23,392 bases of DNA from Candidatus Hydrogenedentota bacterium (GTDB lineage: Bacteria; UBA8481; J006). Below, piece after piece: positions 3 to 23,023 of this stretch. The notes under the pieces are model-generated. The model saw only the letters and a program-made list of their open reading frames with translations. It did no database searches and was not told the DNA's origin. Positions within the stretch are counted from its first letter, which is position 1, and each line of letters starts with the position of its first letter. A program made the position numbers and the translations under genes. Location of the stretch: NCBI GenBank assembly GCA_003697085.1, contig RFFU01000085.1:1-23392 (forward strand), written 5' to 3'.

Positions 3-47
3 GGTCGGCAAAAAGGGGGAAATTTTAGGATGGAGGAAATCGTTTGA
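3..47 (+). CDS. Possible 3' end of an upstream gene (partial)
   Basis: One frame is open from the window edge to a TGA at 45-47, ending in the residues MEEIV. This stop would overlap the TTG start of the next gene at 44-46 in a TTGA arrangement, as is usual inside an operon. Only about 14 codons are visible, so the product cannot be identified and the frame could be open by chance. Confidence 0.2.
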   Translation, partial: GRQKGGNFRMEEIV

Positions 48-2164
48 ACACGTCCGGAATCTCCGAAATGACGTTGGGGGATTACTGGCGGGTTTTTCGG
101 CGTCGCCTCCTCCATGTTTTCATCCCCTTTCTTGCGCTTTTGGTTGGGGCGTACTGGTATGGAATGACGATCCCATCCGTCTATGAGGCGCGAGCACTAA
201 TTGAAATACAGAAAAACCTCATTCGAAGCGGGATGGGGTTGACCCGAGGGTTTGTCTCGACGTTCGAGAAAGCAACGATGGCAAAACTGGCGACAAGTCG
301 TGATGTCGCGGCGCTGGCAGCTCGAAAACTTCGACACTCCCTTCCTGATCGTTATGGAATGACCTCGGAGGAAATCCTGGCACGGGAAATCCGGGCGGAG
401 GTTCACGTCGAGAACCTTACCCAATCGAACATTCTTCAAATCCGCACCGTGGGATCCGATCCTCGGCAACTGGCGGATTATTGCAACGCCTATGCCGAGG
501 CGGTTGTTGAGTTTTTCGAGAACGAACGCCGGAAGAGCACGATGGAGTTGAAGGAATACATATTGGGCCAGATCCAGGCGTACGACAGCAAGATTGCGGC
601 GTTAGGAGCCAAACTTCAAAGGGTGCGGAACGTCAAGACACCGGAAGGCCTGGAGGAGATAGCCGTTTCCAAGATTGCGACGCGAGCGAATCTGAATCGA
701 ATCGAGGAAGAATTGGAACGACTGGTTCGTGAAAGGGAACGTTTGCGGGAGAAAGCGGAAAATCTTCGCAATGCGAGGGCAAGCGGCGATTTTGTGAAAG
801 TGGCGCAAATGCTGGGGGGAAGGGAGTTGGAGTCCCGTGTGGACGAGATTCAGAGACTCGAGAAACGGCGCGATCAACTTCTCACGCAGTTTACCCCGGC
901 GCATCCCCGCGTCGCGAAGGTAATAGACACCTTGAATAAAGCGAAGGAAGAATTGAAGGGAGTCGCAAATCAGGCGTTGGAAGCCTATCTGCTCTCGAAC
1001 GAAACCCGCGAGCGGGAGATCGAACAGTCCTTGACTCGGCTCGAAGGAGAAAGAGCGATGACCCACCGTGCAATAGAGGAATTGCCGGAGCGTTTGAAAA
1101 ACCAAACAAGCCTTGAACGGGAGTTGGCGATTGCAACGTCCGTCAGCCGGATGTTTCAACAAAAACTCCAAGATTTCGAGATTTCGATGAACGCCCCGTC
1201 GGACAGATTATTTCTGATGGAGCGAGCGGCTGTTCCGGAAAAGCCGATTCGTCCGGATCGGAAGATGATCGTAATTCTGGGGGGGATCATCGGTTTTCTT
1301 TTGGGGCTTGCGGGGGCGTTTTTAGCCGAGGCGATCGACACAAGCCTCAGTGCCCTGAAGGATGTCGAGCGGATTCTCGAACGGCCGGTTTTGGCGGTGG
1401 TTCCCAGAATTCGGATCCCCAATGAAAAATTGGACACGGAACGATTTCCGACGGTACGAAAGGATCTTCTTCAGACGGTTCCGATGATGGTGGATCAACG
1501 ATCACCTTCGGCGGAGGCCTATCGCACGCTGAGGGCCGTCATTCAGAGGCGATTTCTCGAATCCGGGTTCAAGACCTTGTTGGTAACGAGTTCGACGCCG
1601 CAGGAAGGAAAGACGACCACGATCGCGAATTTGAGTTTGGCGTGCGCGGCGGCGGGCCTGAAAACGATTGTGGTTGGAGCGAACATGCGGCATCCGGTGA
1701 TCGGCCGTTTCTTCCCCATCGACCGTATGAAAGGCCTCCACGAATTGTTAACCGGGAAGCGGACTTTGGAAGATGTGATTCAGGAAACGGGGTTCGAGAA
1801 TCTCCATATCATCGATTCGGGAAGCTTTGTGCGACGTCCCGCCGAGGTTCTGGCGAGCAGCCGGTTCAAGGAAGTCTTGGAAATTCTCAAGAAACGGTAC
1901 GATATCGTCCTGGTCGATTCGCCTCCCATGTTGCCCGTGGCGGACGCCACGACGATAGCGCCGCTTGTGGACGGCGTCTTGCTCGTTTATCTCGTGAGTG
2001 TGGCGCCGCGGGATGCTCTTTTGCGATGTCGCGAGACTCTGGAGGAAGTCGGCGCCAACATCATCGGCGTGGTCTTCAACGATCCATGGGAGCGCTCGCA
2101 GAACGATTATGCGGGATACTATTATCATCATCGATATGCCGCGGACGAGTTTTCGAGGTTGTGA
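44..2164 (+). CDS. Wzz/GumC-type polysaccharide chain-length protein with BY-kinase domain (first of two)
   Basis: Inner-membrane tyrosine autokinase controlling polymerisation or export of an exopolysaccharide. The 706-residue product has an N-terminal Wzz segment with a transmembrane helix near residues 24-46, a long periplasmic coiled-coil region (about 160-380), a second helix near 405-428, and a cytoplasmic BY-kinase domain from about 480. Visible motifs are Walker A STPQEGKTTT (K523) and Walker B VLVDSPP (D625). The C-terminal tail holds five tyrosines (Y689, Y692-694, Y698), the usual autophosphorylation cluster. Oddity: Walker A' reads VVGANMR, with G545 and N547 where the family has Asp. 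The TTG start is preferred because GGAGG lies 7 bases upstream (32-36); the ATG at 68 has no ribosome site. A close paralogue follows 38 bases downstream. Fold assignment is firm; kinase activity is not. Confidence 0.93.
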   Translation: MNTSGISEMTLGDYWRVFRRRLLHVFIPFLALLVGAYWYGMTIPSVYEARALIEIQKNLIRSGMGLTRGFVSTFEKATMAKLATSRDVAALAARKLRHSLPDRYGMTSEEILAREIRAEVHVENLTQSNILQIRTVGSDPRQLADYCNAYAEAVVEFFENERRKSTMELKEYILGQIQAYDSKIAALGAKLQRVRNVKTPEGLEEIAVSKIATRANLNRIEEELERLVRERERLREKAENLRNARASGDFVKVAQMLGGRELESRVDEIQRLEKRRDQLLTQFTPAHPRVAKVIDTLNKAKEELKGVANQALEAYLLSNETREREIEQSLTRLEGERAMTHRAIEELPERLKNQTSLERELAIATSVSRMFQQKLQDFEISMNAPSDRLFLMERAAVPEKPIRPDRKMIVILGGIIGFLLGLAGAFLAEAIDTSLSALKDVERILERPVLAVVPRIRIPNEKLDTERFPTVRKDLLQTVPMMVDQRSPSAEAYRTLRAVIQRRFLESGFKTLLVTSSTPQEGKTTTIANLSLACAAAGLKTIVVGANMRHPVIGRFFPIDRMKGLHELLTGKRTLEDVIQETGFENLHIIDSGSFVRRPAEVLASSRFKEVLEILKKRYDIVLVDSPPMLPVADATTIAPLVDGVLLVYLVSVAPRDALLRCRETLEEVGANIIGVVFNDPWERSQNDYAGYYYHHRYAADEFSRL

Positions 2165-2202
2165 AACGAGGGGAGAAGTTTCAGGGAAGAGGAGCTGGAT
2201 AA

Positions 2203-4437
2203 ATGGCCGTTGGATATGAGATGTCGATCCAGGATTACCTGCGCGTTATCTTCAAGCGCAAATGGATCATTCTCCTCAGCGCGTTTACCCTCCTCATTTC
2301 CGCTATTGTTTACACAAACCAATTTTTGACACCCATTTATCGGACGTCCGCGCGCGTAGAGCTGAATTATCAATCCACGCTGGCGAATCTTCTGGCGGAT
2401 GCCTTGTTGTACAAGGGAAACGAATTGGCGACAGCCATCGAATTTGCGACATCGATGCCGGTGATGGAGCGCGCGGCCATGGAATTGGGTTGGGTCGGAG
2501 TGGATTCCTCTCCGGCCGAGGTCACGCAAGCCGCTTCAACCTTGAAAGCGGGGGCTAGCGCAAACGGAGACGGGCAAACCAATTTCATAACGATCTATTA
2601 CACGGGTGATGACCCGCATCTCTGTGCCCGGGCGGCCAACGCGATTGCGAAGGCTTTCGAGGAGGAGTACAGCACGCGAAACAAGAAGGAGACCCGGGAG
2701 ATACGGCACTTTCTCGAGATGCAGCTGAGGGACGCCGAAGAGAAGTTATACGAAGCCGAAAACGCCTTGTTGCGTCTGAAACAAGAAAAGCCGCTTGTGA
2801 CACTGGAGCCGGGGGTGAAGGTCAGCGTGGACAAGGCCGCCGACCTGGAAGCGGAGTATCAAAAGGTCCAGATAGAACGGATGCGGGCCGAACGGGAATT
2901 GGCCGAGTTCAAGAAACAGTTGGATCAAGAAAAAGAGGGTAAGCAGGCGGAAAAACTCCTCCAGCAGGATCCTCGTTTTCAACGAATCAAACAGGAACTT
3001 TTTGACGCCGAGGTGGAATTGGCACGGAAATTGAAAGACCTCACACCGAGGCATCCGGAGGTCGAGGCGCTCGAAAGGAAGATCACGCGACTTCGTTCCG
3101 CAATGGAGATGGCGATTTCCGAGATCTTCACGAATCGCCGGGGAACCCTGGAGGCGCGGGTTATGACGCTTCGCGCAAGAGAAAAGGCCCTTGCCAACGC
3201 TCTTCCCCAAATCAATGCCCTGCTCGAACAAATTCCGAGAAATCAGATTGAACAGGCTCGCTTGTCCAGAAAAGTCGCGCTTCAGGAGAAATTGTACAAT
3301 TTCTTCCGCGACAAGCTGGAAGAGAAGCGTTATGAGGAACTGATCTCGAAGGGGAACACCGTCAGTTTCGTGGAACCTGCCCCGATCCCCGCGGAACCGA
3401 TTTATCCGAACAAAACGAACAACGCCATCATCGGCCTCGTGATCGGCCTTATGCTCGGTTTCGCGTTGGCCTTTGTCGTTGAAGCAATGGATACATCGAT
3501 TGGAACGATCGGGGATGTCGAACGAACGACAGGGTTAGCCGTGCTCGGCGTGATACCATCGATTGTGGTGGACGAGGAGGAGGCGGAAGAGACGGCCAAG
3601 GCGGTCGTGACCTTCGATCCCGATCGCGTCCGTGCCCGCGATCTCAAGGAACGTCTCCACGAACTGGATCAGGCGATGGACAAGCCGGAAAACCTCCTCG
3701 GTTTCAAGCCACATCTGATCACGTACTTTGATCCGAAATCGCCCATTTCCGAGGCCTATCGAACCTTGCGAACGAACGTGCAATTCCGTGGCGTGATCGA
3801 CAACGCGAAGACACTGACGGTAACTTCGTCCGGACCTCAGGAGGGAAAGACGACGACGCTGTGTAATCTGGCCGTGACGATGGCGCAATCCGGCCAGAAG
3901 GTTTTGGCCGTGGGATGTAATCTGCGGCGGCCGGCGCTTCATAAACTCTTCGGGATCCCGAAGAAGCCGGGAATGACCGACGTGTTGATCGGGGCCAAAA
4001 AGTGGCAAGAGGTCGTGAAGGAGACGGGGATCGAGAATCTCCACGCCTTTTGTTCCGGTCCGATTCCTCCGAATCCCTCGGAGTTGATCGCGTCGGAGGC
4101 GATGACGGAAATGATCCGGGAGGTGCGGGAGGAATACGACGTGATCGTTTTCGATTGTCCGCCGGTCCTTCCGGTGACCGACGCCGCCGTGCTTTCCTCG
4201 AAGGTCGATTCCGTTTTGCTCGTTTATCACGTCGGAAAGGCGGCGCGGGAAGCCCTCTTGCGGGCCAAGGTTCAGCTGGAAAATGTCGGAGCGCGACTTT
4301 TGGGCATTGTTCTCAACCGTATTCCCGCGGAGGGCCGGCTCGGTTACTCTTATTATTACTATCATTATCATTACTACGGAGATCCGACCTCTGAGATCGA
4401 GACGAATGGCAAGGTACTGCGGAGGAGGAAAACCTGA
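2203..4437 (+). CDS. Wzz/GumC-type polysaccharide chain-length protein with BY-kinase domain (second of two)
   Basis: Second membrane tyrosine autokinase of the polysaccharide locus, 744 residues. It has a Wzz N-terminus with a transmembrane helix at about 22-42, a periplasmic coiled-coil region (about 165-390), a second helix near 406-428 and a BY-kinase domain from about 510. Walker A is SGPQEGKTTT (K549) and Walker B is IVFDCPP (D651). The tail is unusually tyrosine-rich, with eight Tyr between 715 and 725. As in its neighbour, Walker A' is altered: AVGCNLRRP gives G571 and N573 in place of the two aspartates. The ATG at 2203 has GGAG 8 bases upstream; the ATG at 2221 is a weaker alternative. 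The two paralogues could form mixed oligomers or act at different steps; the sequence does not say which. Confidence 0.93.
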   Translation: MAVGYEMSIQDYLRVIFKRKWIILLSAFTLLISAIVYTNQFLTPIYRTSARVELNYQSTLANLLADALLYKGNELATAIEFATSMPVMERAAMELGWVGVDSSPAEVTQAASTLKAGASANGDGQTNFITIYYTGDDPHLCARAANAIAKAFEEEYSTRNKKETREIRHFLEMQLRDAEEKLYEAENALLRLKQEKPLVTLEPGVKVSVDKAADLEAEYQKVQIERMRAERELAEFKKQLDQEKEGKQAEKLLQQDPRFQRIKQELFDAEVELARKLKDLTPRHPEVEALERKITRLRSAMEMAISEIFTNRRGTLEARVMTLRAREKALANALPQINALLEQIPRNQIEQARLSRKVALQEKLYNFFRDKLEEKRYEELISKGNTVSFVEPAPIPAEPIYPNKTNNAIIGLVIGLMLGFALAFVVEAMDTSIGTIGDVERTTGLAVLGVIPSIVVDEEEAEETAKAVVTFDPDRVRARDLKERLHELDQAMDKPENLLGFKPHLITYFDPKSPISEAYRTLRTNVQFRGVIDNAKTLTVTSSGPQEGKTTTLCNLAVTMAQSGQKVLAVGCNLRRPALHKLFGIPKKPGMTDVLIGAKKWQEVVKETGIENLHAFCSGPIPPNPSELIASEAMTEMIREVREEYDVIVFDCPPVLPVTDAAVLSSKVDSVLLVYHVGKAAREALLRAKVQLENVGARLLGIVLNRIPAEGRLGYSYYYYHYHYYGDPTSEIETNGKVLRRRKT

Positions 4438-5873
4438 TGCCGTCTCCGGTATCAGTCGGCCCGGGAACATTCAGCCCCTATCGCGTGACGCCACCGGCCA
4501 GAACGAAACCCATGGCGGGAGCAATGGGGATCGTGTTCGTGTCCTTGGGGTTTGTGATGGTTCTGGCCTCGCGCGCTTCGGCCACCGGAGCGTCGGGACT
4601 GGCGATTTTCATTATCGCGACCATCGTCATTCTCTTTACGATCATCGATGTGGAGTTTGGTCTTTATTGTCTTGTGGCGGGGATGCTTCTGTCACCGGAA
4701 ATTCCTCTCAAGTTCATTAAGCTGCCACAGCGGGAGGTCGTGATTCGAATCGATGATATTATGATCATTCTTGTCAGCGCTGCCTGGTTTGCTCAAGTGG
4801 CGGTTTATGGAAAACTCGAAACGCTGGTATCCTCCCCCTTGAACAGACCCATTCTGTGGTTCTCTTTTCTGACGATTGTTTCCACAGCTCGTGGTGTTTT
4901 CGCCGGCTCCGTGCCGCATGCCCCCACGGCTTTCTTTTACGTCTTGAAATTCTTGGAATTTTTCCTCCTGTATTTCCTCGTCCTCAATACCGTGAACTCC
5001 GAGGAACAAGTAAAACGAATTATGAGTGCTTATCTTTTAACCCTGGTGATTGTGGTGGCCTGGGCCACGTGGACGGCGGTAATTACGAAACAATACGGCC
5101 GTGCCACAACGCCGTTCGAAACGGAAGAAGAGCCGGGAACACTGGGCGGTTATCTTCTCTTCTCCTTCGCGCTTTGCTTCGGCTTGCTGAATTATGTCCC
5201 CAATATTATTCAAAAAATATTTTATTTTCTAATGATGGTGGCGATTGTTCCTCCCTTTCTCTACACACTTTCGCGCGGGTCTTACATGGCGTTCTTTCCA
5301 ATGTTCCTGACGATCCTCTTTCTGAGCCGGCGGAAGGCCATCCCGCTCTTTTTTCTGATCATCCTTGCGGCCTCGATTCCGTGGTTGCCGAGTGCGACAC
5401 GGGAACGCGTCGAATACACCTTCCAAAACAGAGTGCAGTACGTTCGCGGTGAGACACCGGTCGGGTTCAAGGAACAGCTGGATCCCTCCTCGGCGGCCCG
5501 CCTTCAGCGTTACAAGGGCGTCGTGCGCCAATGGAAATACAAGCCGCTTTTGGGGCAGGGGGTTACCGGCGTCGGGTTCGTGGACAGCCAGATCGTGCGC
5601 GTCCTTGGAGAATTGGGGATTCTCGGACTTCTGACCTTGATATGGTTGTTTCGAAATCTTTTTCAAACCGCGGTGCGGCTTTATCGGGCGCTTCCGGTCG
5701 GCTATATGAAGGGGCTGGTTCTCGGAATGATCGCCGGGTCGGTCGGCTTGATCTTTCACGGCGCAACGGCCAACACCTTCATTGTCGTTCGCATCGCGGG
5801 TCCCTTCTGGGTTTTGACGGGTCTCGTTATGGTAATCGAACGGATTCACCGGGAGGAACTGCAGGAGGCGTGA
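4437..5873 (+). CDS. O-antigen ligase/polymerase family membrane protein (WaaL/Wzy-like)
   Basis: Polytopic inner-membrane protein of 478 residues with about ten to twelve hydrophobic helices, expected to polymerise lipid-linked repeat units or ligate them to an acceptor on the periplasmic face. Family marks are the Wzy_C-type segment LYTLSRGSYMAFF (S279-R280-G281), a larger polar loop after it (about 320-380), and the late motif GELGILGLLTLIW. The start ATG shares one base with the preceding stop (TGATG) and has a GGAGGAGG purine run just upstream, so it is coupled to the second kinase gene. Context favours a role in the same exopolysaccharide pathway. Sequence alone cannot separate polymerase from ligase. 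Confidence 0.85.
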   Translation: MPSPVSVGPGTFSPYRVTPPARTKPMAGAMGIVFVSLGFVMVLASRASATGASGLAIFIIATIVILFTIIDVEFGLYCLVAGMLLSPEIPLKFIKLPQREVVIRIDDIMIILVSAAWFAQVAVYGKLETLVSSPLNRPILWFSFLTIVSTARGVFAGSVPHAPTAFFYVLKFLEFFLLYFLVLNTVNSEEQVKRIMSAYLLTLVIVVAWATWTAVITKQYGRATTPFETEEEPGTLGGYLLFSFALCFGLLNYVPNIIQKIFYFLMMVAIVPPFLYTLSRGSYMAFFPMFLTILFLSRRKAIPLFFLIILAASIPWLPSATRERVEYTFQNRVQYVRGETPVGFKEQLDPSSAARLQRYKGVVRQWKYKPLLGQGVTGVGFVDSQIVRVLGELGILGLLTLIWLFRNLFQTAVRLYRALPVGYMKGLVLGMIAGSVGLIFHGATANTFIVVRIAGPFWVLTGLVMVIERIHREELQEA

Positions 5874-11272: not shown

Positions 11273-12750
11273 TTCTCCTCGATGCTTATCAGATCAGCAT
11301 TGAAGAGAGTGGCGATTTCCTGAGCCGCTGGGTCAACGGCCTCCCTCGCGGCCTTCCTCTTTCCCGATATCTTCTTTGCGTCTCTTCTCTTCGGAGAATT
11401 TGAGTCCGCCGGAGCAGGAGGAGGAGTGGATGAGGCGTTTCGGAGTGGGGACGTCTCCTGGACGAAAGATCGAATTTCATTCCGGCGAAGACGTGCTTCC
11501 TCCGAAACTCCTTTAAGCCGGTCGGCCGACGCGGCTTTTTTTTCTCCGCGGAATTTTTGTTCTTTCATACGCGATTGTTTCTCCAAATCATCGGGCGGTC
11601 CGGAGAGAATTATGTTTCGATCGTCCGGAATTGTCTGAGCCGCCAAGCGTTTCAGTTCCTCGTGGATGGCCCGCAGAGAGGTATCACGCAAGCCTAGTCC
11701 GCAGAGGCGTCCGAGGAGTACCTCGAGTTCGATGCGCGGGAACCGGCTTGTTCGCATCCGGGCGGCGGTTTCGAGAAGAGTTTCAAGGCTTCGGATGATT
11801 CTTCCGCGGCTCATCTCCGCCATTCCCCCCTTTCGTTCGAACGACGCGACGAGGAGTTCTCGCCAGGAACTCACGAGACCGCGGACGATCTCCATCGGAT
11901 CAATGCCTGATTTGACGAGGGAGCCGACACGGGAAACAACTTCGTCGGCGGAACCTTCCGAGATTGCCTCGACGATTGCCTGGACTTCCTCGTGCGGGAC
12001 CAGACCGAGCGCTTCTTCCACTTCCTTGCGGGTGATTGCTTTGTCGTTGTAGGAACGAACGAGATCGAGGGCGCTGAGCGCGTCGCGGACGCCTCCCTCC
12101 GCATAACGACAGATCAGCGTAAGGGCTTCTTTGTTGATCTTGATCTTCTCTTTCTTTGCGATTGTTTGGAGGCGTGCCACCAGGGTTTCTTCGGGAATCG
12201 GGCGAAAATCGAAACGCTGGCAACGGGAACGAATCGTGACCGGAACCTTATGCCCTTCCGTCGTCGCCAGCACGAAGAGGACGTTCGACGGGGGTTCCTC
12301 GATCGTCTTGAGTAAGGCGTTGAAGGCGGCCGTCGAGAGCATATGGACTTCATCGACGATGAAGGTCTTGACGCGAGCGCGGGCGGCGGAAGTGTTGACC
12401 GCCTGAATGATCGTGTCGCGGACGTTGTCCACGCCAGTGTTCGAGGCGGCATCGATCTCCAGGACGTCGATATCCCGTCCCGCAGCGATCTCGAGACAGG
12501 AATCGCAACGGCAACAGGGGGTTGTCGTCGGTCCCTTTTTGCAGTTGAGTGCTTTTGCAAGGAGGCGCGCCATAGTCGTCTTTCCCAGTCCGCGCCCGCC
12601 GATGAAGAGGTAAGCATGCGCCCAACGTCCGTTCTCAATCGCTTTTGTCAGCGTTCGGACGATGTGCCCCTGGCCGACGACTTCGTCGAACGTCTGGGGC
12701 CGGTAACGACGTGCTAAGCCTTCATACGTATCCGATTTTTCCTTCGCCAA
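11269..12750 (-). CDS. dnaX: DNA polymerase III subunit gamma/tau
   Basis: Clamp-loader ATPase subunit of the replicative polymerase; 493 residues. It begins with the family signature YRPQTFDEVVGQ and has Walker A GGRGLGKTT (51-59). A four-cysteine zinc module is visible at C70, C79 or C80, C82 and C85. Walker B is IVDEVHML (131-138) and the SRC motif is in TIRSRCQRF. The AAA+ and collar domains occupy about 1-370; the remaining roughly 120 residues are a polar, proline/lysine-rich tail, shorter than the E. coli tau tail. The start is TTG with only GGGAA as a ribosome site; no in-frame ATG precedes the conserved YRPQ segment. The large SRP RNA gene sits 53 bases upstream on the same strand, a neighbour pairing seen in various bacteria. 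Confidence 0.96.
   Translation of the reverse strand: MAKEKSDTYEGLARRYRPQTFDEVVGQGHIVRTLTKAIENGRWAHAYLFIGGRGLGKTTMARLLAKALNCKKGPTTTPCCRCDSCLEIAAGRDIDVLEIDAASNTGVDNVRDTIIQAVNTSAARARVKTFIVDEVHMLSTAAFNALLKTIEEPPSNVLFVLATTEGHKVPVTIRSRCQRFDFRPIPEETLVARLQTIAKKEKIKINKEALTLICRYAEGGVRDALSALDLVRSYNDKAITRKEVEEALGLVPHEEVQAIVEAISEGSADEVVSRVGSLVKSGIDPMEIVRGLVSSWRELLVASFERKGGMAEMSRGRIIRSLETLLETAARMRTSRFPRIELEVLLGRLCGLGLRDTSLRAIHEELKRLAAQTIPDDRNIILSGPPDDLEKQSRMKEQKFRGEKKAASADRLKGVSEEARLRRNEIRSFVQETSPLRNASSTPPPAPADSNSPKRRDAKKISGKRKAAREAVDPAAQEIATLFNADLISIEEN
11513..11543 (-). other. Candidate frameshift/slippage site in dnaX (A8 run with -1 stop)
   Basis: On the coding strand dnaX has eight consecutive A (11543-11536), read as GAA AAA AAA GCC (E403, K404, K405, A406). 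A -1 shift, or insertion of one A by polymerase slippage, gives seven residues (SRVGRPA) and then TAA at 11515-11513, yielding a product of about 412 residues. That would be a gamma-like form retaining the ATPase and collar domains. A hairpin with stem GCCG/CGGC, a one-base bulge and GTC/GAC around loop GGCC starts directly after the run. E. coli and Thermus thermophilus make gamma from dnaX at A-rich slippery sites. Use here is inference. Confidence 0.5.
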
Positions 12751-12803
12751 TTTCGTTCCCTTTTCTTTGCTTCCGGCGGCTGTCTATCGAACCTCCTTGA
12801 ATA

Positions 12804-13076
12804 GGATGCGTCCCCGGCGTCGAGAACGACTTCCCGGGCAAGTAACGGCTTTCCGCTCCGGCCGGCCGATCCGCGGCACACGAAGTCAGCGCGCTTAGGG
12901 CTGCTCCGGTCAAGGCCTGACCCGGTTCACGGCCCTTCGTTGCGCGGGGACCGGCCTTCGACACGTTCCACACGCTCTCATCTCCCGGAGAGCCGAACCC
13001 TCGGCCGGGCTTTCGGCCCCGCATCGAGCGGATTTCGGGTACAGGGCACCGCTGGCTCCCCGCCTAGACGCATCCC
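12804..13076 (-). ncRNA. ffs: Signal recognition particle RNA, large form with Alu domain
   Basis: RNA scaffold of the signal recognition particle, about 273 nt. The 5' end GGGATGCGTC (13076 downward) pairs with GACGCATCC at the 3' end (12812-12804). The Alu domain is recognisable by TCTAGGCGGGGAGCCAGCGG followed by TGCCCTGTACCCG. Domain IV shows GGGTCAGG on one side and AGCAGCCCTAAG on the other, the conserved Ffh-binding internal loop. The apical part between GUCAGG and AGCAGC is CCUUGACCGG, where the family usually has GGAA, or UGAC closed by paired bases. The gene lies just upstream of dnaX on the same strand. Open frames in this stretch are shadows of the RNA. Ends are set by the terminal helix and could be off by a few bases. 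Confidence 0.93.
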
Positions 13077-13083
13077 GTGAAGA

Positions 13084-13112
13084 AGCGTATGAGGAATTCT
13101 TTTGGCATGCAA
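13084..13112 (-). promoter_or_regulatory. Promoter of the SRP RNA gene
   Basis: On the minus strand TTGCAT (13112-13107) and TACGCT (13089-13084) are separated by exactly 17 bases, matching -35 and -10 elements. Seven bases further on lies the G at 13076 where the terminal helix of the SRP RNA begins. Agreement between promoter spacing and predicted RNA 5' end supports both. Confidence 0.6.
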
Positions 13113-13147
13113 GGTCCGCGTGTTTTTCCCGTTCTGGCTGCCGAAGC

Positions 13148-13184
13148 GTTCGAGGATTCGGAAAACGGGGACGTTTTCTCGAAC
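13148..13184. promoter_or_regulatory. Inverted repeat in the divergent region between SRP RNA and lanthipeptide operon
   Basis: GTTCGA (13148-13153) pairs with TCGAAC (13179-13184), and inside it GAAAACG (13161-13167) pairs with CGTTTTC (13172-13178) around a GGGA loop, with a seven-base bulge on one side. It lies upstream of both divergent promoters. It may be a regulator-binding palindrome or a transcription barrier; nothing in the sequence decides. Confidence 0.35.
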
Positions 13185-13207
13185 GAGCGACGGTGAGAAT
13201 TTTCACA

Positions 13208-13236
13208 TTGATTTTTCGGCGCATCACCACCATAGT
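13208..13236 (+). promoter_or_regulatory. Candidate promoter of the lanthipeptide operon
   Basis: TTGATT (13208-13213) and CATAGT (13231-13236) are spaced by 17 bases and each match four of six consensus positions of a housekeeping promoter. Transcription would begin near 13243, leaving a leader of about 80 bases before the precursor gene. Confidence 0.4.
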
Positions 13237-13324
13237 TCAAGAGGAGTCCGGTTGTGGGGGCGATGGACAGCAGAGAAGTCTTTTCCACGACTGGAAGAGA
13301 TTCAACAAAAAGGAGGGTGGCGTT

Positions 13325-13714
13325 ATGTCACAGGAGGCTTTGGTCCGGTTTTACAAGGCGATGTTTACGGATGACAACATCCGGAAACAGACGCAGGAGG
13401 CGTTGGCGGCGAACGATGGAGAGAAACTCGTCGAGATCGGCAACGCGAACGGCTTTGAGTTCTCTTTGGAAGAACTCAACGCCTTCACGAAGGTTGTCCG
13501 TGCCTGGCGGGATCCCGAGTTTCGAAATTCGTTGTCGGACGAGGAACGGTCCCAGTTGCCGGAGAATCCGCTTGGCGACGAGGAATTGGATGAAGAATTT
13601 CTGAAGCAGGCGGTTGGAGGGAAACCGAAACCCGGGGGCGGGTGGGTATCCACTGTCAGCGGCGACTGCTGCAAAAAGACCGGAACGTATATTCACGACT
13701 GCAATCCGTTCTGA
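13325..13714 (+). CDS. lanA: Class II lanthipeptide precursor, Nif11-type plus mersacidin-type leader
   Basis: A 129-residue precursor peptide. Residues 1-52 look like a Nif11-type leader domain, ending in ANGFEFSLEEL. Residues 57-99 look like a mersacidin/lichenicidin-type leader: VRAWRDPEFRNSLS, then LPENPLG, an acidic stretch and the double-glycine site VGG (G98-G99). The core is about 100-129 and has C115, C116 and C126 with S109, T110, S112, T119 and T121 available for dehydration. Its segment PGGGWVSTVSGDC parallels mersacidin's PGGGGVCTLTSEC. The ATG at 13325 has AGGAGG 8 bases upstream; the frame is open upstream but without a comparable site. lanM lies in the same direction 2.5 kb downstream, and a stable hairpin directly follows this gene. 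Family call is by motif; the ring pattern is inference. Confidence 0.88.
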   Translation: MSQEALVRFYKAMFTDDNIRKQTQEALAANDGEKLVEIGNANGFEFSLEELNAFTKVVRAWRDPEFRNSLSDEERSQLPENPLGDEELDEEFLKQAVGGKPKPGGGWVSTVSGDCCKKTGTYIHDCNPF

Positions 13715-13724
13715 TTTCGTCGGG

Positions 13725-13761
13725 CGGGATGGGGCGCGCGATTGCGCGCCCCTCCGTCCCG
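13725..13761 (+). terminator. GC-rich hairpin after the precursor gene (terminator/attenuator or mRNA stabiliser)
   Basis: GGGGCGCGC (13731-13739) and GCGCGCCCC (13744-13752) form a perfect nine-pair stem around GATT, extended by CGGGA/TCCCG (13725-13729 with 13757-13761). No uninterrupted T tract follows, though a T-rich stretch begins near 13781. Placed between a lanthipeptide precursor and its enzymes, it probably keeps precursor mRNA more abundant than downstream mRNA. Confidence 0.65.
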
Positions 13762-13953
13762 TCCGCTTCTCCGGAACGTTCTTTCTTCCTTGTATCGCGG
13801 GGAAGAGAAAGAGGGAAATAAGGGGGGGCAGCGCGGGCTGTCGGGGAACGAGAAGGCTGATGCCGGCGGAGGAGCCGACGCGGTTCGAGGAAGGATGTCT
13901 GAGGGGAGTGGAGTGCTGGGAAAACCAAGCCGATTGCGAATGACTTCGTTCGA

Positions 13954-15150
13954 ATGATGGGAAGCCTCTGGTTTACCGAAGGCCTCGGTATTTTTCTCTT
14001 TTTCGTATTCGTGGAATTGGTGGTGGAGCGCCTCTGGCCGCAGATCACGTATTCCTATCAGAACGAATTGATCCGGAAAGGCCGATACAACCTCTTTGCT
14101 CCCGACGAGGTTGTAGGATACCGCTTGAAACCGTCGCTGAAGAACCATTCCGTCTATGCCTTCGATCACTGGATGAAACCCGTGCCTTTCCTCGTATCCA
14201 CCGACGAAGACGGATACAGGATCTCCCGTTTGGACGGCCGAGAAGAGCCGGTGTACGCACTGGTCATAGGAGACAGCAAGGTTTTTGGATTCGGCGTCGA
14301 CAACGATCGAACGATCCCGTCCGTCCTTTCCGCGTTGCTGGATAAGAAAGTCAAGAACTGCGGGCTTCCCGGGGCCGGGCTCGGTGAACATTATTTCACT
14401 TTGAAGAGGGCTTTGGAACGCTACCCGGAGGCACGATATGTCGTTCTTTACGTGAACCTCTCGACGGACACCAGTGAAATGGAGGAAGTCGCGTGGGACG
14501 TCGAGAGAGAAGAATTTCCGGCAAGAATCGAACGGGAACATTTCGTGACGGAGGAGGGATTCTTGAAACAGAAGAATCCTCCTTTTGTTTACCGCATTCC
14601 GGTCATCAGGAATTTTCATTCCGCGATTCTCCTTTTTACCTTCTTTCTTACGATCAAGAGCCTCGTAATCAGCGGAGGAGACCGGCTCTTTCGGAAAGGG
14701 CCGACAAGAATCCTCGACGAAAAGCGAACGAAGATCCAGCGGTGCGTGGCAAAGTATGCGGAGGTGTTGCGGGAATGGAGAGGGAAGGCGATTTTCGTCT
14801 GGGGGATGGCTCTGCCGTATTACGATGGTCGAAAATGGTATGACCGGTTCGATGGATGGCGGAAGGAAATGGAGGAGATGATACGCGGAGAGGAGATCGA
14901 CGCGGCTTTCGTGAATCTGTTGCCTTTGATCAGAGAAAAGTCCGCCCGCCGTTCGCTCTATGTCGAGGCCTCACACTACAGCAGCAGGGGATGCGAGTTC
15001 GTCGCGAAGAGGATCTTCGAGGTGATGCGACGGAACGCGGGGGAGAATCTTCGGCAGGGGAGCGGAGTTGAAGAGGGGGAGGAAAGAAGTGGGACGGCCG
15101 GTACCTCGAAAGAAGTTCGACGGTCCCTTGTGGAGCTGCTCCAGGCGTGA
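13954..15150 (+). CDS. Membrane-anchored SGNH/GDSL-hydrolase-like protein in the lanthipeptide operon
   Basis: A 398-residue protein with an N-terminal hydrophobic helix (about 5-25) that would anchor it, and an SGNH-like fold: block I VIGDSKVFGFGV with candidate nucleophile S108, a glycine segment NCGLPGAGLGEHY, N168 in YVNLSTD, and a C-terminal EASHYSSRG giving H341. The acidic residue three before the histidine is E338 where Asp is usual. A second hydrophobic stretch (about 225-240) breaks the domain. Family members hydrolyse or transfer acyl esters on lipids, sugars or peptides; substrate here is unknown. Its stop overlaps the next gene (GTGA), tying it to lanM. The ATG at 13954 has no good ribosome site; a stop at 13900-13902 limits upstream extension. 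Hydrolase fold is fairly sure; activity is not. Confidence 0.75.
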   Translation: MMGSLWFTEGLGIFLFFVFVELVVERLWPQITYSYQNELIRKGRYNLFAPDEVVGYRLKPSLKNHSVYAFDHWMKPVPFLVSTDEDGYRISRLDGREEPVYALVIGDSKVFGFGVDNDRTIPSVLSALLDKKVKNCGLPGAGLGEHYFTLKRALERYPEARYVVLYVNLSTDTSEMEEVAWDVEREEFPARIEREHFVTEEGFLKQKNPPFVYRIPVIRNFHSAILLFTFFLTIKSLVISGGDRLFRKGPTRILDEKRTKIQRCVAKYAEVLREWRGKAIFVWGMALPYYDGRKWYDRFDGWRKEMEEMIRGEEIDAAFVNLLPLIREKSARRSLYVEASHYSSRGCEFVAKRIFEVMRRNAGENLRQGSGVEEGEERSGTAGTSKEVRRSLVELLQA

Positions 15151-16253
15151 CAGAACCCTTTACTGAGACTTGGCGTCATGTCTTGGACAACGTTCTTCCG
15201 TTTCTTCCCGAGGTACTGGCCGACGGTGAAAACCGATACCGGATGTGTTCGGTTGCCGAGACACTTCCCGCTCCGCTCTCCGAACATTTCGCGTTCGAAT
15301 GTCGTTTCGGGGAAAAAGGTTGTTCCGTGGATTTAATTCTCGAATTGAATCCGGAGTATCGTTCGTCTTTTGTCAAAAAACCGCTTGCCGTTCCCTTTCC
15401 GCCGGGGGCAGGCGAAGAATGGGAGATGGCGCGGGATTTGGCTCGTTGCTGGCTCGATTCCTCTTCCTTCGCCTCTCGGCGCGTGGGAACTCTCTTTTTC
15501 GAGTTCGATACCGCCAGGCCGTCGCCAAGGCGCAATCTCTTCGCGCCGGTCCTCTTCATCGGAGCGCCGGACGAGGGACTCGTTCGCGGCGGAAAAACTC
15601 TTCTTTCCGATGATTTTTCGAGTCTGATGGCGATGCTCGAACTTCTGCGAGGAGTCCCGGTGAGTCCGGGTCACCGGAAGAAACTTCGCCTGCTTCTGGA
15701 GATGCTTCCGGACGGACGGAAACTTGTTCAGCTGGGTTCGACACGCGCCCGAGGGAGAGACGTTACGAAACTCCTTTTGGCGATTGCACCGGAGGAAGAT
15801 CCCGTGGGATACGTTGCGAAGGCGGGCTTTCCCCTTGCAGTTCGGGAGTTGAGGAAAACCTACGACGAGTACCAAAAACTCGTCCGCTGGATTTTTGTGA
15901 TGCTCGATATCGATGAATCCGAAGTTACGAAGATCGGGTGGGAATGTTATACGGGTGATAACGAGTGGCATCCGTTCCTGGAATTCCTGCGGGAACGCGG
16001 TCTCGCTCTGGTCGAGAAGACCGAAGCGCTTCTCCAATGGCTGGGGCGCTCGATCGACGGCGAGGACGGCTACGCGGCGCCGGCGGCGTGGAGGAAGACG
16101 GCGGAAGAGATGAGTCGGATCGCGGGTCGCCGAATTGTTCCGGTCCTGGAGCGCCGCCTCCACCACATCAAAATCGTCCACGACGTTTCCGGGGCGGTGA
16201 CGGCGAAAGCCTACCCCACAGCGCGACTGCGATTCTTAGGAGTCCGGAGATGA
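15147..16253 (+). CDS. Uncharacterised protein coupled to lanM
   Basis: A 368-residue, apparently soluble protein with no signal peptide or membrane helix, starting at GTG (GTGA overlap upstream) and ending in a TGA that overlaps the lanM ATG. I cannot assign a named family. Visible blocks are GTLFFEFDTA (about 113-122), a middle region with KLVQLGSTRARGRDVTKLLL, VMLDIDESEVTKIGWECY followed by WHPFLEFLRERGL (about 251-287), and a C-terminal HHIKIVHDVSGAVTAKAY. From memory, uncharacterised proteins with similar ordered blocks occur beside LanM genes in cyanobacteria; I cannot verify this here. Tight coupling suggests a role in precursor handling or modification, such as substrate recruitment, but no catalytic motif is evident. 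Confidence 0.8.
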   Translation: MTEPFTETWRHVLDNVLPFLPEVLADGENRYRMCSVAETLPAPLSEHFAFECRFGEKGCSVDLILELNPEYRSSFVKKPLAVPFPPGAGEEWEMARDLARCWLDSSSFASRRVGTLFFEFDTARPSPRRNLFAPVLFIGAPDEGLVRGGKTLLSDDFSSLMAMLELLRGVPVSPGHRKKLRLLLEMLPDGRKLVQLGSTRARGRDVTKLLLAIAPEEDPVGYVAKAGFPLAVRELRKTYDEYQKLVRWIFVMLDIDESEVTKIGWECYTGDNEWHPFLEFLRERGLALVEKTEALLQWLGRSIDGEDGYAAPAAWRKTAEEMSRIAGRRIVPVLERRLHHIKIVHDVSGAVTAKAYPTARLRFLGVRR

Positions 16254-19200
16254 CGGTGTCTTCCGATTATCCGTCACTCTCCTCCGAAAATGCCCCGTCC
16301 CGCCTTGCCTCGATTTTCGATCGTGACTGCTGGTATGCCGCTTTGACGCTCGAAGAACGCCGCGATATTTATCGCGCTCAAAGAGACGCTGTAACGGAGG
16401 CAGATCTCGATTATGACCGCGGAAGAGGGTTACGCCAACGTCTTGAGTCGCATCCCGCGTTTCGCCAGTCGCCGGGACGCTTGGAGAAACGATTGCGGAT
16501 GGATGGGCTTGCACCGGCCGAGTTCGAAAGGATTGCATCACTGAAGACAACCTGGCTGAAACAGCACATTCAACACCATCCCTCGTGGCTCCTCGTCCTT
16601 CGTGACGCTTTCGTGAGCGAACCCGACTATTCTCTTTCTCTGGAAGGGCGTCCACTGGCCGGATTTCTCTATCTGGCGCTTCCGCTGATTCAGAGGGCGT
16701 ACGGATCTCTCGGGGACGTTTTCGGTGCATCATCGAATGCATCGCCTCTCATCGCCGATGCCGAAGCTCTGGCGCGTTCGGCCGTCGAGCAGTTTCTCCC
16801 GCACCTCTTCGAGATCGTAGCGAAGGCGGCGATTCTCGAGATGAACTTGGCCTCGCGAATGGGAATTCTTTCGGGAAAGACGGAAGAAGAACGATTTTTT
16901 TCTTTCGTCGCAATGTTGAAGGATCGAGAGTTCGCCGCGGGAATGCTCTCACAATACCCCGTTCTCGCGCGAGACGTCGTGACCTCCGTTGAACTCTTCC
17001 TTAACGCGATGACCGAGATGTTTCAGCACCTGAAGGACGATTGGCCGTCCATCGAACGGGAACTCTTCGGTGGAAAGGCGGCCGGAACCGTGGCGGATCT
17101 CCGCATCGGTCAAGGGGATCGCCATTCCGGTGGACACAGCGTAACCATCTTGAAGTTCAAGGACGGCCGGAAACTCGTCTATAAACCCCGCTCATTGCGG
17201 ATGGAGAGCGGCTTGGCGCGGCTTTTCGAGCGAATCAATAGGGAACTGCCGGAGTTGGATCTGCGGGCATTGAAAGTGCTCGATCGTGGAGATCACGGGT
17301 GGCTCGAATTTGTGGAGGGGCGGTCGGCCGACGAGCGAAACGAGATCTCGCTCTTCTACCGGCGACTCGGCGCGGAGTTGGCTGTCTTGTACGCCTTCCA
17401 AGCCATCGATTATCACTTTGAAAATATTCTCGCTGATGCGGATCATCCGATCTTGATCGATTGCGAGACTCTGATGTCGTCGAACCTCTTTCCGACGGAC
17501 GATTCGATCTCAATCTGGAACAGTATGCAACAGAGCGTTCTGAGTACGGGGCTTCTGCCACACAGGATTTTGCTTCCCAAGTCTCCCGAGGGATTTGATA
17601 TCGGAGGAATGGCTGATGTCGCGGGAGAACGTCTGCCGGACGAAACACCGGACTGGGATGTCCCACCTTCCGATCGCATGCGATTGACCTATTCCGCGAA
17701 GCCGCTCGAAAAGGGTCGGAACCGTCCCCGCTTGAAAGGCCGGGAAGTGAATATGCTCGAGTTTCTCGAGGAATTCGTGGAAGGGTTCTCCGCGGTGTAC
17801 GATCTTTTCCTCGAAAAGCGCAAGGAATGGTTCGACGAGGACGGCGGGGTTTTCGAGGATTTTGCCGGAGCGAAAAGCCGGGTCTTGGTTCGGGTGACGA
17901 TGGGATACGGTTATCTGCTTCGGCGAGTGAGTCATCCGGATTACGGTCGTGATGCTTTGGATCGAGAATGGCTGCTCGACCATCTCTGGATCGGCGCCGA
18001 CGAACAACCGCTTCTGGAGAAGACGATTTCGAGCGAAAGGGCGGCGTTGCGACGGTATGATTATCCCATCTTCTTCGCTTCGATCGGGAGCCGTGATCTC
18101 GAGGACGGTGACGGGGGGCGAATTCCACGGGCTCTTCCTTCCTCGCCGATCGAGGCGGTCCGAGCGCGTCTCGGCCGGTTTTCAGAGGACGACAAGCGGA
18201 AGCAGATCGGTATTATTCGCTCGACCCTGGCAGCCAATCGAAAGGATCGCGTCGCGTTGCGACGCCATACCGTCTTGCCCGCCGCAGGTTCGTTCCCGGC
18301 GAAACGGCTTTTGAAGATCGCGGAACGGGCGAAGGAGTATCTGGAACGCACGGCGATCGAGGGAGAAGACGGAGTGGGATGGTTGGGGCTGCGAATCGGA
18401 ACGGTGATCTTTTCGGAGGCGGAATACGATTTTCAGCCGCTCTGGATCGATCTTTACAGCGGCGTGACCGGCGTGGCGCTTTTCCTTGCTGCGTGGAGCA
18501 AGACGTCCGGTGACGCTCGATCAGAGGAACTGGCACGGAAGGCGTTGCGTTCCCTTGAAAGTCTTGTCGAGGAGAAACTCGAGGGTGTCGAGGAGCGGCT
18601 TGGCGGGTTTGACGGTTGGGGAGGGGTTCTGTACGGACTGACGGCGGTGGGCCGCTTGTTGACGGATGATTCGTTGTTCGCCCTCGCCGCGCGGACCTTG
18701 GCGCGTATCGAAAGAATCATTCCGGAGGTGAAGACGGCGGACATTATTACCGGTGCCGCCGGCGCGATACTTGCTCTTTTGGCTTACGATGCGGTCACCG
18801 GCGAAGCCCGCGGGCACGCGGCGGCTGTTCGGCTCGGAGAGTATCTTGTTCGAACCGCGTTACCGCAAAAACGAGGTCTGGCTTGGAAGGGGCATTCTAC
18901 GGAACCGATTTGCGGTTTCGCTCACGGTGCGGCCGGTATCGGCTATGCATTGCTTCGGCTTGGCGCCGTTACGGGCGAAGAACGGTTTCGGGAAACAGGA
19001 ATCGCGGCGTACGAATATGAGCGGTTTCGATTCCGCTCCGAGATTCGTGATTGGCCGGATATGCGGGATGCCATGAAGGAAATGACGCGAGCCGAGGATG
19101 TCCCACGCAGCTGCACGTGGTGCAACGGGGCTCCGGGAATCGGCTTGAGCAGGCTGGATTCGTTGAGACTGGTGGAGGATTCGCAACTTTCGACGGAAAT

Positions 19201-19510
19201 CCGAGACGCGTTTGATCGCACGATCGAGCGAGGATTCGGCATCTCCCACAGCCTCTGTCATGGAGACTTCGGAAATCTGGTCTTCCTCGACCGCGCCTCA
19301 CGCCATCCGTATTGCGCCGCGGAGCGCGAGCGGGTATGCGCCCTCGCCAACGGTGTGGTGGAGAGCGTCGAAAAAGAAGGGTTTATCTGTGGCGTTCAGA
19401 CGGGGATCGAGACGCCCGGCCTGATGACCGGAGTCGCCGGCATCGGTCTCGGTGCGCTTCTCTTGGCTGAACCGGAATTGTCCGTGAATCCGTTGTTATT
19501 GAAATGTTAG
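16250..19510 (+). CDS. lanM: Class II lanthipeptide synthetase LanM
   Basis: Bifunctional enzyme that phosphorylates and eliminates Ser/Thr, then adds Cys thiols to form thioether rings. The 1086-residue product has an N-terminal dehydratase (DUF4135-like, about 150-680): D290 and H292 in GDRHSGGHSV, K312 in VYKPRS, D387/H389/N392 in DYHFEN, and D404/E406 in LIDCETL, so the kinase-like set is complete. The C-terminal LanC-like cyclase (about 740-1080) has GFDGWGG, H892 in CGFAHGAAGIG, and zinc ligands C958 (WCNGAPG) with C1003-H1004 (CHG), the standard Cys-Cys-His type. The frame is open 95 codons further upstream, but ATG 16250 overlaps the preceding stop (ATGA) and has AGGAG 7 bases before it. 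Its 3' end overlaps the convergent malic enzyme gene by 15 bases. Confidence 0.96.
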   Translation: MTVSSDYPSLSSENAPSRLASIFDRDCWYAALTLEERRDIYRAQRDAVTEADLDYDRGRGLRQRLESHPAFRQSPGRLEKRLRMDGLAPAEFERIASLKTTWLKQHIQHHPSWLLVLRDAFVSEPDYSLSLEGRPLAGFLYLALPLIQRAYGSLGDVFGASSNASPLIADAEALARSAVEQFLPHLFEIVAKAAILEMNLASRMGILSGKTEEERFFSFVAMLKDREFAAGMLSQYPVLARDVVTSVELFLNAMTEMFQHLKDDWPSIERELFGGKAAGTVADLRIGQGDRHSGGHSVTILKFKDGRKLVYKPRSLRMESGLARLFERINRELPELDLRALKVLDRGDHGWLEFVEGRSADERNEISLFYRRLGAELAVLYAFQAIDYHFENILADADHPILIDCETLMSSNLFPTDDSISIWNSMQQSVLSTGLLPHRILLPKSPEGFDIGGMADVAGERLPDETPDWDVPPSDRMRLTYSAKPLEKGRNRPRLKGREVNMLEFLEEFVEGFSAVYDLFLEKRKEWFDEDGGVFEDFAGAKSRVLVRVTMGYGYLLRRVSHPDYGRDALDREWLLDHLWIGADEQPLLEKTISSERAALRRYDYPIFFASIGSRDLEDGDGGRIPRALPSSPIEAVRARLGRFSEDDKRKQIGIIRSTLAANRKDRVALRRHTVLPAAGSFPAKRLLKIAERAKEYLERTAIEGEDGVGWLGLRIGTVIFSEAEYDFQPLWIDLYSGVTGVALFLAAWSKTSGDARSEELARKALRSLESLVEEKLEGVEERLGGFDGWGGVLYGLTAVGRLLTDDSLFALAARTLARIERIIPEVKTADIITGAAGAILALLAYDAVTGEARGHAAAVRLGEYLVRTALPQKRGLAWKGHSTEPICGFAHGAAGIGYALLRLGAVTGEERFRETGIAAYEYERFRFRSEIRDWPDMRDAMKEMTRAEDVPRSCTWCNGAPGIGLSRLDSLRLVEDSQLSTEIRDAFDRTIERGFGISHSLCHGDFGNLVFLDRASRHPYCAAERERVCALANGVVESVEKEGFICGVQTGIETPGLMTGVAGIGLGALLLAEPELSVNPLLLKC

Positions 19511-20975: not shown

Positions 20976-21082
20976 AACGGTGCCGAGCATTAACTTTTAA
21001 CTTTTGAAGACGAACTGTCCAACAGCCGTTTTCAACGGGCTCCCAAGAAGAAAAAGTTAAGAAGTTAATGCCCGGCACCGTT
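20976..21082. repeat. Large imperfect inverted repeat between malic enzyme and tolC-like genes
   Basis: The arms (20976-21005 and 21051-21082) are near-perfect reverse complements: AACGGTGCCGAGCATTAAC on the left and GTTAATGCCCGGCACCGTT on the right, each continued inward by an A/T-rich TTAACTTTT-type segment. A smaller hairpin (AGCCGTT/AACGGGCT, 21024-21041) sits in the centre. The right arm supplies the stop codon and last residues of the tolC-like gene. It may act as a bidirectional terminator, a REP-like palindrome or a small mobile element; no target duplication is obvious. Confidence 0.7.
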
Positions 21083-23023
21083 TCCACGAATCGCAGCCGT
21101 CAGAGTCGCCTGAGCGCGTGCCAGCCCATACCGGGCCTCGATTTCCTTTTGGTACGCCAAGACGACGTCTTCTTCCGCGTCCAACACGCGCTGAGTGTCT
21201 CCCAGTCCAAATTCAAACCGCCGTCGCTCGGCCAGCAGTCGTTCTTCCGCCAATTTCCGAGCCGCCACGGCTTCCTCCAGGCGTTTTTTTCCGAGCCGTA
21301 CCTCGCGGTAGGCATTGCGGACGGCCAAACGCACGCGATTCTCCACCGCTGTCAACGCCAACCGTTTCCGTTCGTAATCGATCCGTGCCGCCTCGAAACG
21401 CGCGCGATCCGCGCGGTTTCCCAAGGGAACGGTCAGAACGAGTCCGGCCGACCAGTTTGGATTGTCGTTGTCCAACGTTTCGCGCCACGCGTCGCCGAAG
21501 GTCTCGTCCGTTCCCCCCGTCCCAACGGACCCGGTCAAATCGAGATTGGGGAGAAGAGCCTTTTTCGCCGCCTTCAACGTGATTTCGGCCGCGTCGAGCG
21601 TTTTCCGTGCGGCGCGGACGTCGTCACGGACGCGTAAGGCCTCCTCTTCAAGAACTTCAGGGGAGGGGAACGTCAAGGGCGGCGGTGGTTCCGAGACGGC
21701 CCAGGGTAGGACCGTCTGATTGCGCGCATCCTCACCGTATATCGCGAAAAGAAGTTCTTCCGCCGCGTTCTCACGTCGTGTCGTTGCGGCGACGAGCGCT
21801 TCCCTTCGAACGGCGACGCCGGCCCTTGCCGTCAAAACTTCGACGTCGGGAAGAAGTCCGTGACGATTCAAGCCCTCGTTGCGTTTCAACAGAAGTTTTC
21901 CAAGTTCGAGCGATGCTCGGGCCACGCGTTCGGACGCTTGGGCCGCCCCGAGGTTCCAGTAGGCCTTCTCGATCCGTTCGATCACCTCGATGCTGAGTCG
22001 TTCGTAAAGTCCTTCCGCCGCTTCCGCGCTCTTTTTGGCCGCCTCTGTTGCCGCGTACGCACTCACACGTCCGGCTCCCTCGAGAATCGGTTGTGTCACG
22101 GATAGGGAGGCGTCGGTTGTGTAGGTGGGATCCAGAGTCGAGGGAAAAGGATAACTTCGGGAACGCTCCGTCGAGGCCGAGAGGTCGATGGTGGTTCCGG
22201 TGGGAAGTGTTTGGGATAAGGTCGCAGAATAGGACGTCGTGCGCGCGTCCGAAATCGAAACCGGCGTCCCGTGTCGCATCACCCGTGATCGGGTCCAGGA
22301 TTGTTGCGATGAGAAGGTCAGCGTGGGGTCGAAATCGGCCCGCGCTTCCTCGTACGTCGTCCACGCCGCTTGGGGATCGTAGGCCTTCGAGAGAATCTCG
22401 AGATTGCGGCGGCGAGCCAAGTTCAAGGCGCTTTTCAAGGAGAGCGGCCGGATCGACGGATCCGAGGGAACCGTCACGAGGTCATAGCGAACCGTGGGAA
22501 GCCTCGGTTTCGGTATCGTCTCCGAGGGGGAAGGAGATTCCGCATGTGGTGCTTGCGCGTTGGAGAAGGTCGGAATGGGAGTGTGCGCGGAACCGATGGG
22601 AGAGGGGACTTGCCGGGGTCGGCGCGAGGAAGGAGAGGCCTTCCCATGGCTTGAAGTGGGAACCCGATCTTCATGTGCACGCCGGCGCCGAACTTCCGAG
22701 GCCTTCGTTTCTTCGGGAATCCGCAGTCTCATTCCAGCCCGAAGTTCGTGTGGTGAAGAGAGTCCGTTTTCCTCTGCCAGGGACTTCCAAGCGTTTCCGT
22801 TTCCCAGTTCGCGCCGGGCGATCCCCCAGAGTGTCTCTCCAGGTTCGACGACGATCTCGCGGGCCGTGACTCCGATTTCGTTTCCCAAGAGAAGAATTGT
22901 TCCGAGTAACACCAGGAAAGTCGCCGTGAAAGAGCGGCGCGGTGCCCGCGACGGGCCGAAGCCGGGTTCCCCTCCTCGTCGGTCTTTCGGACAAGATGTT
23001 TGCGAATTGTCGGATGGAATCAT
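21065..23023 (-). CDS. TolC-family outer-membrane protein with N-terminal LysM domain
   Basis: A 652-residue secreted protein. An N-terminal basic stretch and hydrophobic helix (about 33-50, TATFLVLLGTILLLG) act as signal sequence or anchor. A LysM peptidoglycan-binding domain follows at about 56-101 (VEPGETLWGIARRELG, LRAGMRLRIPEE), then a Ser/Pro/Arg-rich linker to about 175. From about 190 the protein is TolC-like, with two repeats of the outer-membrane factor fold: LSLKSALNLARRRNLEI opens the first and a coiled-coil rich region (320-480, 570-645) forms the periplasmic barrel. TolC proteins are the outer-membrane exit duct for efflux or type I secretion. No pump or adaptor gene is adjacent, so the partner is unknown. 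Last residues (NGAGH) come from the inverted repeat. Confidence 0.88.
   Translation of the reverse strand: MIPSDNSQTSCPKDRRGGEPGFGPSRAPRRSFTATFLVLLGTILLLGNEIGVTAREIVVEPGETLWGIARRELGNGNAWKSLAEENGLSSPHELRAGMRLRIPEETKASEVRRRRAHEDRVPTSSHGKASPSSRRPRQVPSPIGSAHTPIPTFSNAQAPHAESPSPSETIPKPRLPTVRYDLVTVPSDPSIRPLSLKSALNLARRRNLEILSKAYDPQAAWTTYEEARADFDPTLTFSSQQSWTRSRVMRHGTPVSISDARTTSYSATLSQTLPTGTTIDLSASTERSRSYPFPSTLDPTYTTDASLSVTQPILEGAGRVSAYAATEAAKKSAEAAEGLYERLSIEVIERIEKAYWNLGAAQASERVARASLELGKLLLKRNEGLNRHGLLPDVEVLTARAGVAVRREALVAATTRRENAAEELLFAIYGEDARNQTVLPWAVSEPPPPLTFPSPEVLEEEALRVRDDVRAARKTLDAAEITLKAAKKALLPNLDLTGSVGTGGTDETFGDAWRETLDNDNPNWSAGLVLTVPLGNRADRARFEAARIDYERKRLALTAVENRVRLAVRNAYREVRLGKKRLEEAVAARKLAEERLLAERRRFEFGLGDTQRVLDAEEDVVLAYQKEIEARYGLARAQATLTAAIRGNGAGH

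Follow-up and report, generated by a model that had tools for sequence, protein, structure and literature searches.

Known Class II Systems and the New Locus

The lacticin 481 and mersacidin groups of lantibiotics are described as sharing a lipid II motif (PMC6156582; PMC11877530), and T-x-S/T-x-D/E-C is a general lipid II motif of class II. Ring A of nukacin binds lipid II (PMC6156582), as does estercin A, which has a related ring (PMC11877530). A class II core need not have this target, since for one class II lanthipeptide, from a cyanobacterium, action through lipid II was disproved (PMC13060382). In a mining study, the lacticin 481 family was found mostly in Firmicutes and in some Actinobacteria (PMC7268733). 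Among the leaders, those of TIGR03898 have 47 residues and carry motif 1, and those of Nif11 type have 69 residues, motif 1 not being listed for them (Haft and colleagues, PMC2887384). The two leader types are said to occur, as a rule, singly, and Nif11 leaders to pair only with LanMs of CCG type (PMC10027976).

The locus described here lies on a contig of 23,392 nucleotides (the window, i.e., the whole stretch of DNA that was analyzed) from Candidatus Hydrogenedentota, a phylum represented by two genomes in the set that we compared. Positions 13325–13714 encode a class II lanthipeptide precursor, and the genes downstream of it include a complete LanM. The features of the locus are as follows.

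13310..13316, + strand: Shine-Dalgarno sequence AAGGAGG of the precursor gene, upstream of the ATG at 13325
13325..13714, + strand: lanthipeptide precursor gene, 129 amino acids plus stop (translation of 13325–13711)
13721..13765, + strand: strong RNA hairpin without a T run, between the precursor and the next genes (folding energy)
13954..15150, + strand: 398-aa protein with an N-terminal hydrophobic stretch and an SGNH/GDSL-esterase-like middle (weak matches: NF047474, E = 0.004; PDB 9otv, E = 0.06)
15147..16253, + strand: 368-aa protein with no Pfam or NCBIfam match
16250..19510, + strand: LanM, 1086 aa, CHG type (TIGR03897, 811 bits for a cut-off of 304; LicM2, 6st5, E = 1e-85)

The LanM has the DUF4135 and LanC domains, and the precursor has a GG leader and a core with Ser, Thr, and Cys, the combination by which class II lanthipeptides are recognized. 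Every dehydratase and zinc motif checked in the LanM is intact, with D-x-H-x-x-N in the dehydratase and G-x-A-H-G, W-C-x-G, and C-H-G in the LanC domain, CHG being the second zinc motif. The three genes after the hairpin (the SGNH-esterase-like protein, the 368-aa protein, and LanM) have a four-base overlap at each junction, the 368-aa protein thus overlapping both neighbors; its single-sequence structure model is unreliable (pLDDT 44). The hairpin has a folding energy of −41.4 kcal/mol over a 69-nt stretch (z = −3.66), a stability reached by none of 200 shuffles, and it may act as a read-through attenuator or a 3′ stabilizer.

In a search of the whole genome, the LanM is the sole protein with a LanC domain and the precursor has the sole Nif11 domain. 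This bears on the idea that the peptide works together with a partner encoded elsewhere, as a two-component lantibiotic. Alpha peptides of such systems do carry a motif of the kind present in this core (PMC10027976; PMC9863751). However, with the genome 94.6% complete, neither TIGR03898 nor Nif11 has a second match in it, and a single LanC-domain protein is encoded there, so that we regard this arrangement as very unlikely.

The Two-Part Leader

The precursor leader is made of 52 + 47 residues, in which two known leader domains follow one another.

13325..13477, + strand: Nif11 domain, leader residues 1–51 (PF07862, E = 1.1e-10)
13490..13621, + strand: mersacidin/lichenicidin-type leader ending in GG, residues 56–99 (TIGR03898, E = 4e-17, profile positions 1–44 of 44)

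On the precursor, PF07862 scores 42.1 bits (cut-off 23.8), TIGR03798 scores 36.8 bits over residues 1–74 (cut-off 32.3), and TIGR03898 scores 61.8 bits (cut-off 23.5), the latter over residues 56–99, i.e., on the leader only. The second half shows, in order, motif 1 (RAWRDPEFRNSLSDE), QLPENP, and the AVGG end, where G98-G99 is the cleavage motif. The original prediction had taken the precursor for a LanM substrate with a GG-ended leader, and both G98-G99 and the downstream LanM bear this out.

In Trichormus and other bacteria, the second half alone is a complete leader, starting at a Met of its own that lies a few residues ahead of RAWKD, and the stand-alone 47-residue leader of Trichormus is the counterpart of residues 53–99. 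TIGR03898 precursors read from two other phyla likewise begin just before the RAW.D motif, which corresponds to the second half. By its sequence, the leader is a Nif11 domain fused to a whole 47-residue leader of mersacidin/lichenicidin type (TIGR03898). This composite leader, which the original prediction leaves unmentioned, joins two types that are normally on separate peptides, and it is less expected than the core. When the 99-residue leader was searched against 767 genomes of two other phyla (367 and 400), many matches fell on the second half, the first half was reached by two weak matches (residues 1–71 and 16–86), and no match spans both halves. No description of Nif11 and TIGR03898 in one leader turned up in the literature searched, although such a case may still exist. 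In the structure model of the precursor (pLDDT 68), helices run across the leader and the core has low confidence; the model gave no useful match in the PDB.

The Core Peptide and Its Lipid II Motif

13622..13711, + strand: core peptide KPKPGGGWVSTVSGDCCKKTGTYIHDCNPF, residues 100–129 (translation, after G98-G99)
13652..13669, + strand: predicted ring A, T110-V-S-G-D-C115, lipid II motif (alignments to salivaricin A, nukacin ISK-1, bovicin HJ50, and mersacidin)

The core had been placed at 13625–13714; the location holds, and the start moves one codon earlier, to 13622, because G98-G99 is the cleavage motif. On the translation, the residue numbers given for the core (P103, S109, T110, D114, C115, T119, T121, and C126) are all correct, and the mersacidin-type lipid II motif announced at T110–C115, with the acidic D114, is present. 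The gapless match to mersacidin (PGGGWVSTVSGDC with PGGGGVCTLTSEC) was reproduced at a BLOSUM62 score of 44, which 3.5e-4 of core shuffles reach, but the choice of mersacidin as the yardstick is not supported: salivaricin A has the top alignment score with the core (51 over 14 residues; about 1e-4 of shuffles), and nukacin ISK-1 aligns over more of it, without gaps across 25 residues (6e-4 of shuffles). The shuffle fractions are uncorrected for the choice of comparison by eye. For these comparisons the sequence of mersacidin was checked against PDB 1MQX, those of nukacin and bovicin against PDB entries, and those of salivaricin A and nukacin against plasmid records; the core was also compared with lacticins, actagardine, and others. 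Searched with phmmer, the PDB gave no match to the core.

The replacement of the mersacidin Cys12 by Ser109 is no novelty, as the lacticin 481 group is normally without a Cys before ring A. A ring A of the form T-x-S/T-x-D/E-C without a preceding Cys, which characterizes that group, is what the core has. PF04604 (type-A lantibiotic, lacticin 481 type; cut-off 21.7 bits) gives 22.5 bits on residues 85–129, a marginal pass helped by leader residues, 20.8 bits on the whole precursor, and 12.3 bits on the core alone. Going by the alignments, the core fits the lacticin 481 group no less well than mersacidin. One may still ask whether it is a true mersacidin relative that lost Cys12, since the leader is of TIGR03898 type (a model not matched by the leaders of nukacin and salivaricin A), the PGGG-x-V-x-T segment aligns, and a leader of the same type precedes a CTLTYEC core in another phylum (L059). 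Yet the core lacks the Cys before ring A, the N-terminal Cys/Thr rings, and a Cys two residues past ring A, and it is outscored by salivaricin A and outspanned by nukacin; we consider this descent unlikely.

No relatives of the precursor or of the LanM were found in genome contigs, nor was any found in one scan of viral contigs. The searches turned up no relative sharing this core. PF04604 had no match across one genome set, not even in the genome of the locus itself, which makes this a weak negative; in another set its only match fell below the cut-off, and the 34-residue frame concerned lies where no ORF resembles a precursor. In another phylum, the core of a TIGR03898-type precursor (L059, genome G827) contains QYCTLTYEC, a lacticin 3147 A1-like lipid II motif.

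If the core were a fast-changing one, as in prochlorosin-like peptides of unrelated function, the motif could have arisen by chance. Cores behind such leaders vary greatly, and T.[ST].[DE]C is found in only one of the 29 distinct TIGR03898-type precursors read in the second phylum; it is therefore not a trait of the leader family. On the other hand, a six-frame search of the 23.4-kb window gives the motif a single time, exactly in the core, behind the GG of a LanM substrate. The motif is present in 0.3% of core shuffles, and its extended form in none of 200,000. The locus also has one precursor and one LanM of CHG type, unlike the prochlorosin system. A chance origin hence looks doubtful.

We find it reasonably likely that the locus makes one class II lanthipeptide with a ring A of lacticin 481/salivaricin A type, a putative lipid II binder behind a fused Nif11 and TIGR03898 leader. 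The motif shared by the lacticin 481 and mersacidin groups, together with the core alignments, makes a lipid II-binding half credible. The LanM would dehydrate Ser and Thr residues of the core and close at least Thr110–Cys115 (core T11–C16). Ring A, with the Lys-containing N-terminus assisting, would then bind lipid II at its pyrophosphate, and the mature product would block cell-wall synthesis in Gram-positive neighbors. A lipid II motif of Gram-positive style is now placed in a nearly unsampled phylum.

The core contains five Ser/Thr and three Cys, and its ring topology is ambiguous for this reason. In the tail, CC stands at core positions 16–17, T at 20 and 22, and a single Cys at 27, the sequence ending in HDCNPF. 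The tail is indeed unusual, as had been noted, with CC beside ring A and a lone Cys near the end in place of a terminal TCC, and this makes the rings beyond the first unpredictable. The most likely further link would be Ser112–Cys126, at the position of nukacin ring B; for Cys116, a ring with T119 or T121, a free thiol, and a disulfide are all conceivable. The Lys at the start of the core raised the idea of a lipidation like that of nostolysamides, which we do not propose because neither of the two other operon genes matches an acetyltransferase family.

Export and Genome Context

No C39 transporter is present among the window ORFs examined. The one C39 peptidase domain of the genome belongs to a transporter on another contig (C106), where TIGR03794, TIGR03796, and TIGR03797 score over their cut-offs and a cyclic-nucleotide-binding protein is encoded upstream. 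The NHLP-type export system was tied to these leader families by Haft and colleagues (PMC2887384), and a C39 protease domain can cleave leaders of Nif11 type as well as those of nitrile-hydratase type (PMC6363468). The precursor is probably exported in trans by this NHLP-type transporter. TIGR03793 has no match in the genome, and the controls are equally without one, which makes this negative uninformative.

The composite leader offers a natural system in which to tell the part used by the synthetase from the part used by the exporter. The LanM and the GG cleavage would most likely depend on the TIGR03898 half, and the distant exporter may recognize the Nif11 half. A bolder and tentative reading is that of a two-address leader, TIGR03898 for the CHG LanM and Nif11 for the distant NHLP exporter, which would deliver a lipid II binder of undescribed ring topology from a diderm of a nearly unsampled phylum.

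On the exporter contig, the NHLP ABC2 subunit (11521–14439, + strand) carries 280 extra residues at its N-terminus, ahead of the model start. About 6 kb upstream of the exporter, a 231-aa ORF (382–1077, + strand) has a double-Gly-type leader (EEPLSEEEMKDVAGG) followed by a stretch that looks Hint/intein-like by eye (CFGPETLVPTRKG...VGDEIVSV), with no Pfam or NCBIfam match. In the window, 21065–23023 on the − strand encodes an outer-membrane efflux (TolC-like) protein with an N-terminal LysM domain, which points to a diderm host. Exopolysaccharide-type genes occupy 44–5873; they include one for an O-antigen-ligase-like protein (PF04932) and two whose products look by eye like Wzc chain-length/tyrosine-kinase proteins.

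Comparison with Known Systems

The core shares K-x-G-x-G-W-[IV]-x-T-[IV]-[ST]-x-D-C with salivaricin A, but the latter has 22 residues and ends in PNSxFVCC, whereas the core has a 14-residue tail (CKKTGTYIHDCNPF), and the leaders are unrelated. With nukacin ISK-1 and lacticin 481 it has in common the N-terminal Lys and ring A (TVSGDC here, TVSHDC there); on nukacin ISK-1, core Cys27 falls on Cys25, the ring B cysteine, and core Thr20 on Ser18. It differs from both in lacking the terminal TCC and in having an extra Cys beside ring A. Accordingly, NF040664, the lacticin 481 family model in which a C-terminal T-C-C closes rings B and C, scores 15 of 46 bits, far under its cut-off. The bovicin HJ50 group shares G-W-[IV]-x-T-[LV]-[ST]-x-D-C but has four Cys and an essential disulfide, whereas the core has three Cys.

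Mersacidin shares PGGG-x-V-x-T-x-[ST]-x-[DE]-C and the TIGR03898-type leader. It is set apart by a Cys directly before ring A and an N-terminal Cys/Thr ring, whereas the present core has Ser109, no Cys before Cys115, no N-terminal rings, and a longer tail. The prochlorosins and other Nif11-leader lanthipeptides likewise have Nif11 at the leader start, GG, and a LanM, but prochlorosins combine a CCG-type LanM with many precursors; here CHG stands at LanM residues 1003–1005, the genome has one Nif11 domain and one precursor, and the leader contains a second, complete TIGR03898 leader. In conclusion, the ring A motif is a general one and the missing Cys before it is usual in the lacticin 481 group; the tail differs from that group, and the composite leader with a CHG LanM is less expected.
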